From Mucilaginibacter sp. UR6-11 (lineage in GTDB: Bacteria; Bacteroidota; Bacteroidia; Sphingobacteriales; Sphingobacteriaceae): a stretch of DNA of 64,000 bases. Both the position numbers and the translations under genes were made by a program. This document shows positions 59,995 through 64,000 of the stretch, piece by piece (the first letter of the stretch is position 1; each line of letters begins with the position of its first letter). The stretch covers positions 1-64,000 of the forward strand of contig NZ_JAJIWO010000008.1 of the NCBI RefSeq assembly GCF_020880695.1. Reading direction: 5' to 3'. The notes under the pieces were generated by a model. It did not search any database. It was not told the DNA's origin and saw only the letters and a list, made by a program, of their open reading frames with translations.

Positions 59995-60366
59995 ATGAGC
60001 GACAACCAAAAAAAGAAGACAAACAAAACAATCGGGAAAAATATACGCACCTTCCGCCATCAGCAAGGCTGGAGCCAGGAGGAGGTAGCTAACCGTCTGG
60101 GAATCTCTATTCCGGCGTTCTCAAAAATTGAAACAGGTGTTACTGACATTAACCTTTCCAGATTAGAACAGATAGCCAATATATATGAAATTGATGTGGT
60201 GCAGTTATTGGCATTGGATATGGAGGAGATAGATCAAACTCCGTCTAACTTGAGCATAGTGCAAAAGAAACTGCTTGACCGGGAGGCTGAAATTGTTAAC
60301 CTGCAACGCAAGGTTATCTTGCTTTATGAAGAGTTACGTAATACAAAAGTATCGGCACACATGTAA
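59995..60366 (+). CDS. XRE-family regulator with C-terminal coiled coil
   Basis: 123 aa. HTH_3 domain at about residues 13-70: IGKNIRTFRHQQGWSQEEVA, NRLGISIPAFSKIETGVTDI, LSRLEQIANIYEIDVVQLLA. A short coiled coil follows (LLDREAEIVNLQRKVILLYE). Soluble DNA-binding repressor-type protein. Two inverted repeats downstream (60383-60402, 60411-60459) could be its sites or terminators. Confidence 0.88.
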   Translation: MSDNQKKKTNKTIGKNIRTFRHQQGWSQEEVANRLGISIPAFSKIETGVTDINLSRLEQIANIYEIDVVQLLALDMEEIDQTPSNLSIVQKKLLDREAEIVNLQRKVILLYEELRNTKVSAHM

Positions 60367-60560: not shown

Positions 60561-60848
60561 ATGACTAATTACCTGATATCAATACCTAACGGACCAACGC
60601 TAACTACCGGTACCATTCACGACTCAAAGAGTAAGCTGAAGGTGCGGGCGTTTGATTTGATCAGATCTACATTTAATCCCAGTAAGGGAGAAGTGCGTTT
60701 TTTTGTTACCGCAGGCAAGAATACACTGGCCTTTGAAACCCAGGGCTATAAAAAACATCGCCAGGTTTTAATTTTACAAATGATATCCTGGTATTGTATG
60801 TACCTGGGATTATTGGAGGCACAGATACATTCCCAACTTCCGGCCTGA
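60561..60848 (+). pseudogene. unrecognised ORF, possibly frameshifted
   Basis: 95 aa starting MTNYLISIPNGPTLTTGTIH. After KHRQVL, the +1 frame from about 60775 continues in better protein-like text (NDILVLYVPGIIGGTDTFPT, then SGLIIIRN) and runs into the stop of the convergent TPR protein. This suggests a frameshifted or truncated gene. No family recognised. Confidence 0.3.
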
Positions 60849-60854
60849 TCATTA

Positions 60855-62285
60855 TTAGAAACCGGGTTTACCGGGATCATGTAGCATGTCACTCATTTCT
60901 ATTATTTTCTCATCAATTTCCGACACGCATTTATCCATCATGGCGATACATTCTAATTGGTCGACCAAGCCTTCTTTTTCTAAGTTCATTAATCCTTTAA
61001 GCGTCGCAATAGGCCCCCTTATTTGGTGCGACAAGTAAGAAGAATACTCTGAAAGCTTTTTATTTTTCACCTGCAGGTCTTTGGTACGCTCATCGATGAT
61101 CTCTTCAAGATGATGATTGATACGATCAAGATTATCTTTTTGCCGTGAGATTTCACCGTTAAGCTCTTGTAACTGCGAGTTTGTGGTGGCCTTGCGCCTT
61201 ACACTGCCTACCAATAATACAATCACGATCAGCAGCAGGCCTGCAGCTACCGTAACTGACCAAAATATAACCCGCGAGATCTCGGCATTCTTCTCCTCCT
61301 CCGCTGCCTTGGCAATACGGCTTTGTTCTTGTTGCAAAAAGTTTAGCCTGGTTGATACATTGGTTTTATAACCGGAGCTGTCCGCCTTATATAGCTCGCT
61401 TAAGATATTCAAAGCTTTTTCATAATTTTTGCGCTTGCTTTCCAGTTCATAGGCAGAGTGCTTATAATCATAAATATCTTTTTCGTTATGGATTATAGTT
61501 GCGTAGGTTTTACCCTCTTTTATATATTTTTCTGCCTCATTAAAATTACTCTCGGCCAGGTAGATATCAGTCAGGGTCATGTTTATGGTCGCTACATTTA
61601 CGTTCATATCCATAGCTTTAGCTCGGGCGTTTGCTTCAAGTAGTAAATCTTTGGCTTTTGTATAATTATGTAAAAAATAGTGTATGACACCCAAATCCTG
61701 TAAACACTGCACCAACTGGACCGGGTCTTTTAGTTGGGTAAACAACTCATAACTTTTCTCATAATAAGACAAAGCACTGTTATACATATTTTTTCGGTTA
61801 TAAATATTACCGATATTTAAATATAACGATGCTATAAGTTGTTTATCCCGGAGTTTTTCAGCAATATCTTTAGCTTTCTTAAAGTATTCCAGAGCCTTAT
61901 CATAATCAACCATTTGATATAGGTTGCCTATGTTGTTATAAACCTTGGCCTTACCACGCTGGTCTGCCAACTTTTCATATTGCGTTAACGCATCGAAATA
62001 GCGGTTTAGGGCGCTGTCGGGTTTATTTAAATAATATTCGCCAATTCCCTTAATTCTATAAGCTTCGGCTATCCCTTTTGTATATCCAATAGATATGGCA
62101 ATTTTTAAAGCCTTTTCTGCGTCTGCAACCGTTTCCTGTGGGTGTGTTAGCCGGTTGTCATATCCGTTTTTATTTAACGAAATTACCTGATTCGTATCGC
62201 TCGCTGTAACATCTCTTTGGGCACTTGCATAGGCAGTAAATGAAACCGATAATAATAAAAAAAGAATTGAGCAAGCATTTCTCAT
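60855..62285 (-). CDS. periplasmic TPR - transmembrane - HisKA-like protein lacking an ATPase
   Basis: 476 aa. Sec signal peptide (LFLLLSVSFTAYASA), then about six TPR repeats at residues ~60-300 such as GKAKVYNNIGNLYQMVDYDK, SALSYYEKSYELFTQLKDPV and KDLLLEANARAKAMDMNVNV. One transmembrane helix follows at about 340-362 (VIFWSVTVAAGLLLIVIVLL), then a coiled coil and a HisKA-type helix with the H-box phrase YSSYLSHQIRGPIATLKGLM. The protein ends about 50 residues later (MLHDPGKPGF) without any N/G1/G2 boxes, so it has no HATPase domain. It may pass signals to a separate kinase. It is divergent from the LATAD peptide genes, and TPR domains are common peptide-binding receptors. Confidence 0.88.
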   Translation of the reverse strand: MRNACSILFLLLSVSFTAYASAQRDVTASDTNQVISLNKNGYDNRLTHPQETVADAEKALKIAISIGYTKGIAEAYRIKGIGEYYLNKPDSALNRYFDALTQYEKLADQRGKAKVYNNIGNLYQMVDYDKALEYFKKAKDIAEKLRDKQLIASLYLNIGNIYNRKNMYNSALSYYEKSYELFTQLKDPVQLVQCLQDLGVIHYFLHNYTKAKDLLLEANARAKAMDMNVNVATINMTLTDIYLAESNFNEAEKYIKEGKTYATIIHNEKDIYDYKHSAYELESKRKNYEKALNILSELYKADSSGYKTNVSTRLNFLQQEQSRIAKAAEEEKNAEISRVIFWSVTVAAGLLLIVIVLLVGSVRRKATTNSQLQELNGEISRQKDNLDRINHHLEEIIDERTKDLQVKNKKLSEYSSYLSHQIRGPIATLKGLMNLEKEGLVDQLECIAMMDKCVSEIDEKIIEMSDMLHDPGKPGF

Positions 62286-62397
62286 TTAAACCCGTATTAC
62301 GTTTTAATTATCGTGAAAGTTATAAATAATACATTATATATTTCCTGTTCCGTTAAAAAAGTGGATTTCTTCTAACAAAAACTTTTTATAAGTTTGC

Positions 62398-62427
62398 TTT
62401 GGAATTAACAAAACATAATTATATTTG
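62398..62427 (+). promoter_or_regulatory. promoter of the LATAD peptide genes
   Basis: TTTG at 62398-62401 and TATATTTG at 62420-62427 (TAnnTTTG) are 18 bp apart, matching the Bacteroidota sigma-70-type consensus. Transcription would start near 62434, giving a leader of about 240 nt before the first peptide ATG at 62673. Confidence 0.7.
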
Positions 62428-62537
62428 CTATGTTAAGTGTTTGAATATCAAAATGGTATCGGCGCTTTTTTTTGAAATTGAATTAATCACTAAACAAAAA
62501 AAATATAGAAAAATAAAAAGGGAGATGTAAGAAAAAA

Positions 62538-62599
62538 ACCAGCTCAAAAGCTGGTAAAAATAGCCTGATTTCGCAGGCTAATTACATAAATATGTAATT
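62538..62599 (+). promoter_or_regulatory. leader with three consecutive hairpins before the peptide genes
   Basis: Three perfect stem-loops in a row: ACCAGCT-CAAA-AGCTGGT (62538-62555), TAGCCTG-ATTTCG-CAGGCTA (62561-62580) and AATTACATA-AA-TATGTAATT (62580-62599). They are in the predicted 5' leader between promoter and first peptide gene. This looks like an attenuator, RNA-binding or stability element; no known riboswitch was recognised. Confidence 0.55.
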
Positions 62600-62672
62600 A
62601 TTATTAACTATTAGTTTATGCTTATTCTCTAAATTATATTTAATATACTACTAACTTAAAAAATTAATAATC

Positions 62673-62819
62673 ATGAAAAATACAGTCTTAATTGCAACTA
62701 TTGTTATATCGCTGAGTATCCTTACATCATGCGCCAAAAAAGATAATATTCAAGCCAATTTAACGGTATTTTCAAACAATACTTTTTCAGCAAAAAGTGT
62801 TTTGGCAACCGCCGATTAA
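62673..62819 (+). CDS. LATAD peptide precursor 1 (48 aa, lipoprotein signal, single copy)
   Basis: 48 aa, too short for routine calling. MKNTVLIATIVISLSILTSC ends in a lipobox, predicting a lipoprotein-type precursor with a 29-residue mature part. The extreme C terminus is AK-SVLATAD-stop: a basic residue at position 41 followed by the heptapeptide SVLATAD. The next gene has the same length and the same ending. This is the pattern of a lipoprotein-derived pheromone precursor. Confidence 0.8.
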   Translation: MKNTVLIATIVISLSILTSCAKKDNIQANLTVFSNNTFSAKSVLATAD

Positions 62820-62873
62820 TTAAAAAACAACCAGATATCCATTAACTATTACATAATATTAAAATAAGAAGCC

Positions 62874-63020
62874 ATGTTAAAAATAATCCTTACCGCAGCA
62901 ATCGTTTTATCAGTAGGTGTTTTATCACTATTAAAAACGACAACACCAGCAAAATCAGCTACCGTTACTACAGTAAAACTAATGGTTGATAACAGAACTG
63001 TTTTGGCAACTGCCGACTAG
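62874..63020 (+). CDS. LATAD peptide precursor 2 (48 aa, single copy)
   Basis: 48 aa with an N-terminal hydrophobic segment (IILTAAIVLSVGVLSLL) serving as Sec signal or anchor. The C terminus is NR-TVLATAD-stop: a basic residue at 41 followed by TVLATAD. Body sequence differs from precursor 1, while length and last seven residues are almost the same, which points to selection on the C-terminal peptide. Gap to precursor 1 is 54 bp. Confidence 0.8.
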   Translation: MLKIILTAAIVLSVGVLSLLKTTTPAKSATVTTVKLMVDNRTVLATAD

Positions 63021-63105
63021 TTTGTTATCTGGATCAATCAATAAAGTTCAAAAATCACATCTATCAACAACGTAATCAAACGATTATAATAATATATATA
63101 ATATC

Positions 63106-63402
63106 ATGAAAAAAATATTCATAACTACTGCTATCATATTTGCTGCAAGCATCGCTCCATCATTTGCTGCCACTACTACAAAAGGCGATAAAAATAATTT
63201 GGCTACCGCCGACAGAAACGGTGACAAAAACAACTTGGCTACTGCTGACAGAAATGGCGACAAAAACAACTTGGCTACTGCTGACAGAAATGGCGACAAA
63301 AATAATTTGGCTACCGCCGATAGAAATGGCGACAAAAACAATTTGGCTACCGCCGATAGAAATGGCGACAAAAACAATTTGGCTACCGTCGACAGATTTT
63401 AA
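63106..63402 (+). CDS. LATAD multicopy precursor A (six 12-residue repeats)
   Basis: 98 aa: a 21-residue Sec signal (KIFITTAIIFAASIAPSFA), five residues (ATTTK), then exactly 72 residues = six copies of GDKNNLATADRN. The last copy is GDKNNLATVDRF. Each copy presents K-NNLATAD-R, so trypsin-like cleavage at K and R would free NNLATAD(R). The codons for the repeats vary synonymously while the peptide is constant, suggesting selection on the peptide. A 98-residue secreted repeat protein with no folded domain. Confidence 0.85.
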   Translation: MKKIFITTAIIFAASIAPSFAATTTKGDKNNLATADRNGDKNNLATADRNGDKNNLATADRNGDKNNLATADRNGDKNNLATADRNGDKNNLATVDRF

Positions 63403-63785
63403 TACAACAATAAACAGAACCTAAATAATCACAAACCACAAATACTCACGAACCATGAAAAAATTATTTATAGCTACCGCCATCATATTCTCTACCGGCA
63501 TTACTTCATCATTTGCTGCTACTACTGTTAAAGCTGACAAAAACAATTTGGCTACTGCTGACAGAGCTGGTGACAAAAACAACCTGGCTACTGCTGACAG
63601 AGCTGGCGACAAAAATAATTTGGCTACCGCCGATAGAAATGGCGACAAAAACAATTTGGCTACCGCCGACAGATTTTAATACAACAATAAACAGAACCTA
63701 AATAATCACAAACCACAAATACTCACGAACCATGAAAAAATTATTTATAGCTACCGCCATCATATTCTCTACCGGCATTACTTCA
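63391..63785 (+). repeat. 277-bp tandem duplication in the LATAD array
   Basis: 63391-63508 and 63668-63785 are identical over 118 bp (end of one gene, spacer and start of the next), offset 277 bp. The spacer appears a third time from 63945 with an inserted ATAAAC. This indicates recent copy-number expansion of the peptide genes by unequal recombination. Within each gene, 36-bp repeats (63184-63399, 63536-63676, 63813-63953) form a second level. Confidence 0.85.
63455..63679 (+). CDS. LATAD multicopy precursor B (four repeats)
   Basis: 74 aa: Sec signal (KLFIATAIIFSTGITSSFA), five residues, then 48 residues = four 12-residue repeats. The first begins ADKNNLATADRA, the second GDKNNLATADRA, the third GDKNNLATADRN and the last GDKNNLATADRF. 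It lies 52 bp after precursor A and starts the 277-bp tandemly duplicated unit. Confidence 0.85.
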   Translation: MKKLFIATAIIFSTGITSSFAATTVKADKNNLATADRAGDKNNLATADRAGDKNNLATADRNGDKNNLATADRF

Positions 63786-63956
63786 GCATTTGCTGCTTCT
63801 GCTGTTAAAGCTGATAAAAACAACCTGGCTACTGCCGACAGGAATGGTGATAAAAACAACTTAGCTACCGCTGACAGGAATGGTGATAAAAACAACTTAG
63901 CTACCGCTGACAGGAATGGTGACAAAAACAACTTGGCTACTGCTGATAGATTTTAA
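63732..63956 (+). CDS. LATAD multicopy precursor C (four repeats)
   Basis: 74 aa, nearly identical to precursor B in the signal region and upstream sequence (KLFIATAIIFSTGITSAFA). Four repeats: ADKNNLATADRN, GDKNNLATADRN twice, GDKNNLATADRF. After its stop the same spacer sequence begins again at 63957 and is cut by the window edge, so at least one more gene probably follows. Confidence 0.85.
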   Translation: MKKLFIATAIIFSTGITSAFAASAVKADKNNLATADRNGDKNNLATADRNGDKNNLATADRNGDKNNLATADRF

Positions 63957-64000
63957 TATAACAATAAACATAAACAGAACCTAAATAATCACAAACCACA

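Follow-up and report, generated by a model that had tools for sequence, protein, structure and literature searches.

The locus described here lies at the end of a window of 64,000 nucleotides (G000:C19:1-64000), the whole stretch of DNA analysed, which belongs to a 4.6 Mb genome of Mucilaginibacter sp. UR6-11. It is composed of an array of small genes for exported precursors and of one divergent gene, which codes for a protein called TPR-DHp in this work (Table 1). Five consecutive genes for small exported precursors, with 16 copies of LATAD or LATVD, had been reported in a sequence-only reading of the window, and all of them were found in their places, with the same number of copies. Nevertheless, this reading missed the continuation of the array: two more genes lie past the window end, so that the whole array is made up of seven genes with 22 core copies.

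Table 1. Genes and other features at the locus (window coordinates, or those of L005 where indicated).
Feature	Position	Strand	Description
XRE regulator	59995-60366		
Small ORF	60561-60848		95 aa
TPR-DHp protein	60855-62285	-	476 aa, divergent from the array
Divergent intergenic region	62286-62672		conserved among 8 relatives
Bacteroidota-type promoter match	TTTG 62398-62401, TATATTTG 62420-62427	+	pattern scan
Two terminator-like hairpins with T runs	62538-62555, 62561-62580	-	at shuffle level
Precursor 1	62673-62819	+	48 aa, lipobox LTSC, C terminus AKSVLATAD
Precursor 2	62874-63020	+	48 aa, hydrophobic N terminus, C terminus NRTVLATAD
Precursor 3	63106-63402	+	98 aa, signal peptide, DKNNLAT(A/V)D in six copies, LATVD being the last
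Precursor 4	63455-63679	+	74 aa, signal peptide, four DKNNLATAD copies
Precursor 5	63732-63956	+	74 aa, signal peptide, four DKNNLATAD copies
Precursor 6	L005:2015-2275		same contig, past the window end; five core copies
Precursor 7	L005:2297-2452		same contig, past the window end; 51 aa, ends NIALATAD
SGNH/GDSL lipase-like protein	L005:2449-3402		type IX sorting domain

The repeat precursors have an AxA-like signal peptidase site, and precursor 1 a lipobox, these signals in the window precursors having been read by eye and not by a signal-peptide program. The synonymous codon variation claimed between copies holds, since over the 19 copies of DKNNLATADR pS was 0.62 and pN 0.0044 (pN/pS 0.007, computed on these ten residues, with the NG/AG spacers not counted), the sole replacement being that of LATVD. 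A structure model of a multicopy precursor gave no fold after the signal peptide (pLDDT 57.4, from a shallow alignment of nine sequences). Moreover, no model named any of the precursors scanned against Pfam (17) or NCBIfam (11). Above the cut-offs there were none of the 11 in NCBIfam and one of the 17 in Pfam, the long repeat protein L043, with CXCR4_N, Pentapeptide_4 and Flexi_CP_N; these were taken as repeat artefacts, since the three models disagree and are absent from five other precursors scanned alongside. Matches of lipoproteins to PG1828 and to a chryseobasin-related model in NCBIfam were below cut-off and confined to the leader half, and no Por_Secre_tail match, indicating a type IX C-terminal sorting domain, was obtained in the 17 precursors scanned.

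The intergenic region contains the single match in the window to the Bacteroidota-type promoter pattern, as against 2.3 expected by chance. Its conservation and this match are compatible with feedback, the pattern alone not being above chance. Scanning for sigma-70-type promoters gave 11 sites versus 8.8 in shuffles and for terminators 3 versus 2.0, with nothing clear, and no RNA element of Rfam reached its gathering score in L005:1-3500. The two hairpins are adjoined by a third AT-rich palindrome and are poorly kept in the eight aligned relatives.

The TPR-DHp protein has a signal peptide, a periplasmic TPR solenoid (residues ~45-305) and one membrane helix (~339-361) followed by RRK; its cytoplasmic part consists of a coiled coil and a HisKA-type helix with His420, after which the protein ends. 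Signal peptide, membrane helix and topology were read from the sequence. The H-box of two-component histidine kinases, with the phospho-acceptor histidine, is present, whereas HATPase_c is absent, no such ATPase domain being among the Pfam matches of the window protein at E up to 1. H420 was invariant in each of three overlapping sets of aligned proteins (18, 64 and 34), and the motif H420-xx-R-x-P (H420, R423, P425) in 34/34 diverse proteins. The Pfam HisKA match, with 19.2 bits, is under the cut-off of 26.9, and that of the NCBIfam FimS model reaches 67.3 bits for a cut-off of 600. TPRs, membrane helix and HisKA-type helix are shared with periplasmic-TPR sensor kinases (FimS and BT3442 in NCBIfam), but TPR-DHp lacks their ATPase domain, ending after the HisKA-type helix, and is accompanied by a divergent array of small proteins.

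The structure model of TPR-DHp (mean pLDDT 85.2, 64 sequences) was compared with known folds, Foldseek also being run. Its TPR part aligned with RapF in complex with its inhibitory peptide (Z 25.0, rmsd 4.0, 292 aligned), RapJ with CSF (Z 24.0, rmsd 4.1, 287 aligned), phage Raps with their pheromones (Z 22.4-23.8) and NprR with NprX (Z 22.9, rmsd 4.1, 275 aligned), these alignments (Z 22-25) being at 12-16% identity. Equal or higher scores were given by APPBP2 with its degron (27.7), TONSOKU (26.2), and APC/C subunits and LGN (about 23), and profile matches of the TPR part included LGN, Hop TPR2A, KLC, Rap and NprR. The fold class is thus that of a peptide-binding TPR and not that of Rap in particular, since other TPR proteins score as high. 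Residues R77, N117 and N157 are identical in 46/46 receptors and presumably face the groove, according to the usual TPR numbering. TPR carboxylate clamps hold the backbone of a peptide and its C-terminal carboxylate, and by analogy these three residues could grip a peptide in the same way. TPR-DHp is proposed as the probable receptor of the array peptides, a prediction with no counterpart in the sequence-only reading, in which this gene was overlooked.

The association of both elements was examined in other genomes. Among 20 stretches around LATAD-stop matches in the genus, precursors were present in 18, with the receptor gene beside them in 17 of these as well as at the window's own locus; the eighteenth, L052, is truncated by the end of its contig. 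Genes are usually arranged as pcrA, XRE, TPR-DHp (divergent), precursors, SGNH (in some), M20 peptidase, dipeptide epimerase, DUF4290 and murA, and clusters for pcrA, XRE, TPR-DHp and M20 comprised 17, 17, 18 and 16 of 21 stretches, respectively. SGNH, M20 and XRE were identified by Pfam; for the remaining neighbours (pcrA, dipeptide epimerase, DUF4290 and murA) the identities are presumed. The SGNH gene stands between the array and the M20 gene at the window locus and at some related loci, and is missing in others. The M20 enzyme, without visible signal peptide, is the sole conserved peptidase nearby, and no genes for modification enzymes, such as accompany the precursors of multicore RiPPs, or for transport, immunity or outer-membrane secretion were recognised among the conserved neighbours at the locus. 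The XRE regulator was discarded as part of the system because, though near the receptor gene in Mucilaginibacter, it was found in 0/37 loci outside the genus (tblastn, E up to 1e-8). The small ORF in the XRE-receptor interval matched nothing in Pfam up to an E of 0.01.

A search for LATAD in relatives had been proposed. LATAD before a stop codon occurs in 36/149 genomes of the genus, with 54 matches versus 37 for the reversed pattern; when 30 such loci were read, exported precursors were present in 21 and lacking in 9. LATAD-stop loci without exported precursors include L007, L008, L012, L015, L017-L020, L023, L042 and L056. In view of this weak excess over the reversed control, LATAD was dropped as a conserved unit. 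As judged from the sequences compared, what is conserved is the grammar of the cores and their genomic place, the LATAD pentamer being a local variant, one version among many, which the sequence-only reading had not recognised.

A receptor profile built from 18 proteins was run against the named genome collection. It gave 82 loci, of which 80 were kept, all from Mucilaginibacter or from MAGs filed as Mucilaginibacter or Bacteroidetes; upstream of the receptor gene, 69 had 1 kb or more, and 11 of the 80 were too short. Exported precursors with a core [LIVTMSE][AGS]x[AGS]D were present in 69/69 of these loci (281 precursors), with 0 in three control stretches, namely the opposite strand of these 3 kb and both strands of the 3 kb on the far side of the locus, which were available in full for 67 loci. 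Since this rule was written after seeing the sequences, the count was repeated without the motif, taking small exported ORFs whose second residue is K or R, which occur in 55/69 loci: 206/221 on the sense strand end in Asp, versus 0/7, 0/13 and 0/15 in the controls. Within a 3.5 kb interval, 283 precursors (168 single-core and 115 multi-core) were counted, with 1077 cores, 35 different pentamers and up to 37 cores in one protein. K or R stands exactly three residues before the core in 979/1013 copies (eight precursors with unknown bases left out), and 68/69 loci have at least one core with this basic residue, so that the rule first read in the window (a basic residue separated by two others from a pentamer with a final D) extends to the whole genus. 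The core Asp is internal in 788/1013 copies, and cutting would thus be needed to expose it.

The cores vary among species groups (KRDLGSAD, KKDVGTAD, DKHNTGSSD). Pairs of genes have the same pentamer in a proportion of 0.471 within one locus (719 pairs) and 0.087 between loci (39184 pairs); all genes have one pentamer in 14/48 loci with at least two genes, most arrays not being uniform. By this comparison the cores are group-specific rather than species-specific, since related species often have a common core, such as KRDLGSAD. Twelve further Mucilaginibacter loci (L215-L226) have small exported genes at the same place with other tails, some of them internal.

A receptor match was obtained in 49/49 Mucilaginibacter genomes at least 90% complete. 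In the family, the profile matched 123/301 genomes at E up to 1e-30, in 12/25 genera, where genus g16 was matched solely through an ordinary TPR kinase (L214) and some g21 matches are paralogues covering the TPR part only. Forty loci were read, 37 outside the genus (35 long enough) and 3 divergent ones inside it, and the M20 gene was present in 36 and pcrA in 35. Under a strict rule, small lipoprotein ORFs were found in 32/35 loci outside the genus, at least one ending in D in 26; altogether 60/72 of these ORFs end in D, and the controls gave 0 ORFs. The three loci missed by the rule have a lipoprotein ORF recognisable by eye, with another start or lipobox. Tails outside the genus include GDKKDMGGWD, NKKDTTQWD, DKGNLGTWD and DKRDLGTGD; deviating ones end in E (L173, L195, L197 and L200) or GG (L180) or have WD internally (L176). 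Beyond the family (295 genomes of the class), the profile gave at most 215 bits versus 667-690 bits, and no array was seen at seven loci (with 0.5 kb and 1.1 kb upstream in one each and 2.6 kb in five), the TPR-DHp architecture being present in 6 of the 7 proteins read. At L255-L260, in other Bacteroidota families, a HisKA-type helix ends TPR proteins without ATPase, and no array was seen.

Receptor evolution was analysed in the 46 of the 69 loci where receptor, M20 and PcrA were all readable. The periplasmic part of the receptor had a median distance of 0.833, as against 0.140 for its cytoplasmic part, 0.155 for PcrA and 0.122 for M20. With the species proxy controlled for, the partial Mantel correlation between receptor and peptide was 0.262 (p 0.0005), exceeding all 2000 permutations (largest 0.256), and that of the cytoplasmic part was 0.142; once the receptor is controlled for, the species proxy retains 0.187 with the peptide, and partial Mantel tests are lenient. 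Fast receptor evolution was not accepted as proof of coevolution with a ligand, since an ordinary TPR kinase is equally divergent: in the same genomes its periplasmic TPR best hits have 25-60% identity versus 37-82% for the receptor (this kinase is present in 27/49 good genomes, the receptor in 49/49). Furthermore, the site-wise coupling between receptor and peptide (the top 20 of 261 columns being 11 in helix A, 7 in helix B and 2 in loops) was too weak and confounded to name any specificity residue.

In these soil bacteria of the Mucilaginibacter/Pedobacter family, the locus is probably an undescribed bacterial peptide-signalling system; no published description of it was found among the titles and abstract openings covered, subscription journals and preprints being outside the scope of the search. 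Signalling by peptides, which the sequence-only reading had put forward as a candidate, is the best-supported reading. We incline, with moderate confidence, to the view that exported prepropeptides release peptides acting as ligands of TPR-DHp, which would signal through its HisKA helix. This account is the most economical, since a pheromone with its receptor would be expected to show each of the features seen here: a constant divergent pairing, a TPR fold, the Asp grammar, group-wise cores, and genes and cores in several copies. In such a scheme the precursors would be exported by Sec, some as lipoproteins, and cuts after the basic residue and at Asp would free short peptides following the pattern xx-[LIVT][AG]x[AGS]-D, which for the window may be NNLATAD, SVLATAD and TVLATAD. 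The released peptides, passing between cells or within the envelope, would sit in the groove that the TPR domain forms in the periplasm, and binding would be relayed by the membrane helix and the coiled coil to the HisKA-type helix. Phosphotransfer between the latter and another protein, a kinase or a response regulator, may follow and change gene expression, probably also at the divergent promoter shared by array and receptor gene. Multiple genes and cores would raise the peptide dose, and drift of the core between species groups would make the peptides group-specific. Against this reading weigh the M20 enzyme without visible signal peptide as the sole conserved peptidase nearby, the internal Asp of most copies, the equally high fold scores of eukaryotic scaffold TPRs, the equal divergence of the ordinary TPR kinase, the correlation kept by the species proxy, the lack of uniformity in most arrays, the two loci with a receptor and no recognisable precursor, and the TPR-DHp proteins of other families that lack an array.

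A different role, in which the small proteins or lipoproteins stay in the periplasm or membranes and their C-terminal tails bind the TPR protein, would make the locus a sensor of the state of the envelope, the level or mislocalisation of the precursors reporting on lipoprotein transport, proteolysis or envelope stress. We consider this unlikely. It agrees with the short lipoproteins found as precursors outside Mucilaginibacter at every locus long enough to be read, with tails that mostly have a free terminal Asp fit for a TPR groove, with the predicted periplasmic location of the receptor itself and with the lack of an outer-membrane secretion gene among the conserved neighbours. Nevertheless, the diversified cores, with as many as 37 copies in a protein, go beyond the needs of a stress reporter, and by a rough pattern a lipobox-like site is present in only 45/283 Mucilaginibacter precursors and 5/115 repeat precursors. 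Highly improbable is antagonism, where the array would code for group-specific toxins or bacteriocins and TPR-DHp would serve immunity or regulation: exported small multicopy peptides with a diversified, polymorphic core would suit it, but these cores are short and hydrophilic, no modification, transport or immunity genes are among the conserved neighbours, and the locus occupies one chromosomal site in nearly all genomes examined. Finally, structural, adhesive or metal-binding repeat proteins, suggested by the long D-, N- and G-rich repeats of some species and by the D-x-N-x-D spacing of the window repeats, which resembles that of calcium-binding loops, are very improbable, this alternative of the sequence-only reading being weakened since K/R-xx-core-D is kept while repeat period, length and flanks differ among species, the tail alone is common to the single-copy genes, and the repeat protein is predicted to be unfolded (from the nine-sequence alignment).

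Returning to the ligand-receptor reading, its closest known parallel is RRNPPA signalling in Bacillota (Rap-Phr, NprR-NprX, PlcR, AimR). In the passages of PMC9765709 and PMC11343458 that concern it, a secreted propeptide gene neighbours the gene of a TPR receptor, the short peptide is C-terminal, and there may be more than one propeptide gene, or more than one peptide copy within a propeptide. The present locus resembles it in the exported small propeptides adjacent to the receptor gene in 69/69 loci, in the C-terminal Asp of most small exported ORFs and in a TPR fold similar to those of Rap and NprR, though equally to those of other TPR proteins. It differs in that the receptor is predicted to be periplasmic and membrane-anchored, with a HisKA-type helix, whereas that of RRNPPA is cytoplasmic, and also in that the host is a Gram-negative member of the Bacteroidota and some precursors are lipoproteins. 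The locus is thus not an RRNPPA member, though RRNPPA-like in its proposed working, since its receptor, with a signal peptide and a membrane helix, is predicted not to be cytoplasmic. Enterococcal sex pheromones, cut from the signal peptides of lipoproteins, are likewise tied to lipoprotein precursors, but the conserved peptide is here the C-terminal tail and not the signal peptide, and the receptor architecture is unlike. Multicopy precursors are known in yeast alpha-factor and other Kex2-type prepropeptides, with which the array shares an exported precursor that holds several peptide copies, each preceded by basic residues; no homology between them is known, the array is bacterial, and a protease of the Kex2 kind would here be putative.

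Most known cases of communication by peptides come from Gram-positive bacteria. A wider claim can be put forward tentatively, namely that the locus is a family-wide cell-to-cell pheromone system with group-specific Asp-ending peptides of 7-8 residues and a membrane TPR receptor, in which the pairing of TPR and peptide had a second origin, across the membrane. If true, TPR-peptide communication would have evolved a second time, outside the cytoplasm and in Gram-negative Bacteroidota, giving them a chemical language of their own, with the locus in nearly every Mucilaginibacter examined and in many relatives. It would also show TPR-peptide recognition in the periplasm and provide a natural ligand-receptor series for specificity studies, the ligands being synthesisable straight from the sequence.

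Some loci depart from the usual arrangement. A receptor without recognisable precursor was found at two, L204 and L206. At L206:5811-8690 the receptor is in its usual place, with no recognisable precursor before the SGNH gene, and the strain may be a listener only. The genome of L204 (G134:C4:1-11000) and L262 (G134:C2:1-12000), from the genus, has three receptor genes, two of them in tandem with no precursor upstream of the pair, while the third starts at a contig end. In another genus, paralogues at L207-L210 fuse the same TPR region to an apparently complete LytS-type kinase (by eye), with no precursor array in the 0.9-2.6 kb upstream. Lastly, L211:7485-8621 is a second, shorter TPR-membrane copy (379 aa) with neither HisKA-type helix nor adjoining precursors, in a genome which also has a complete locus (L226).
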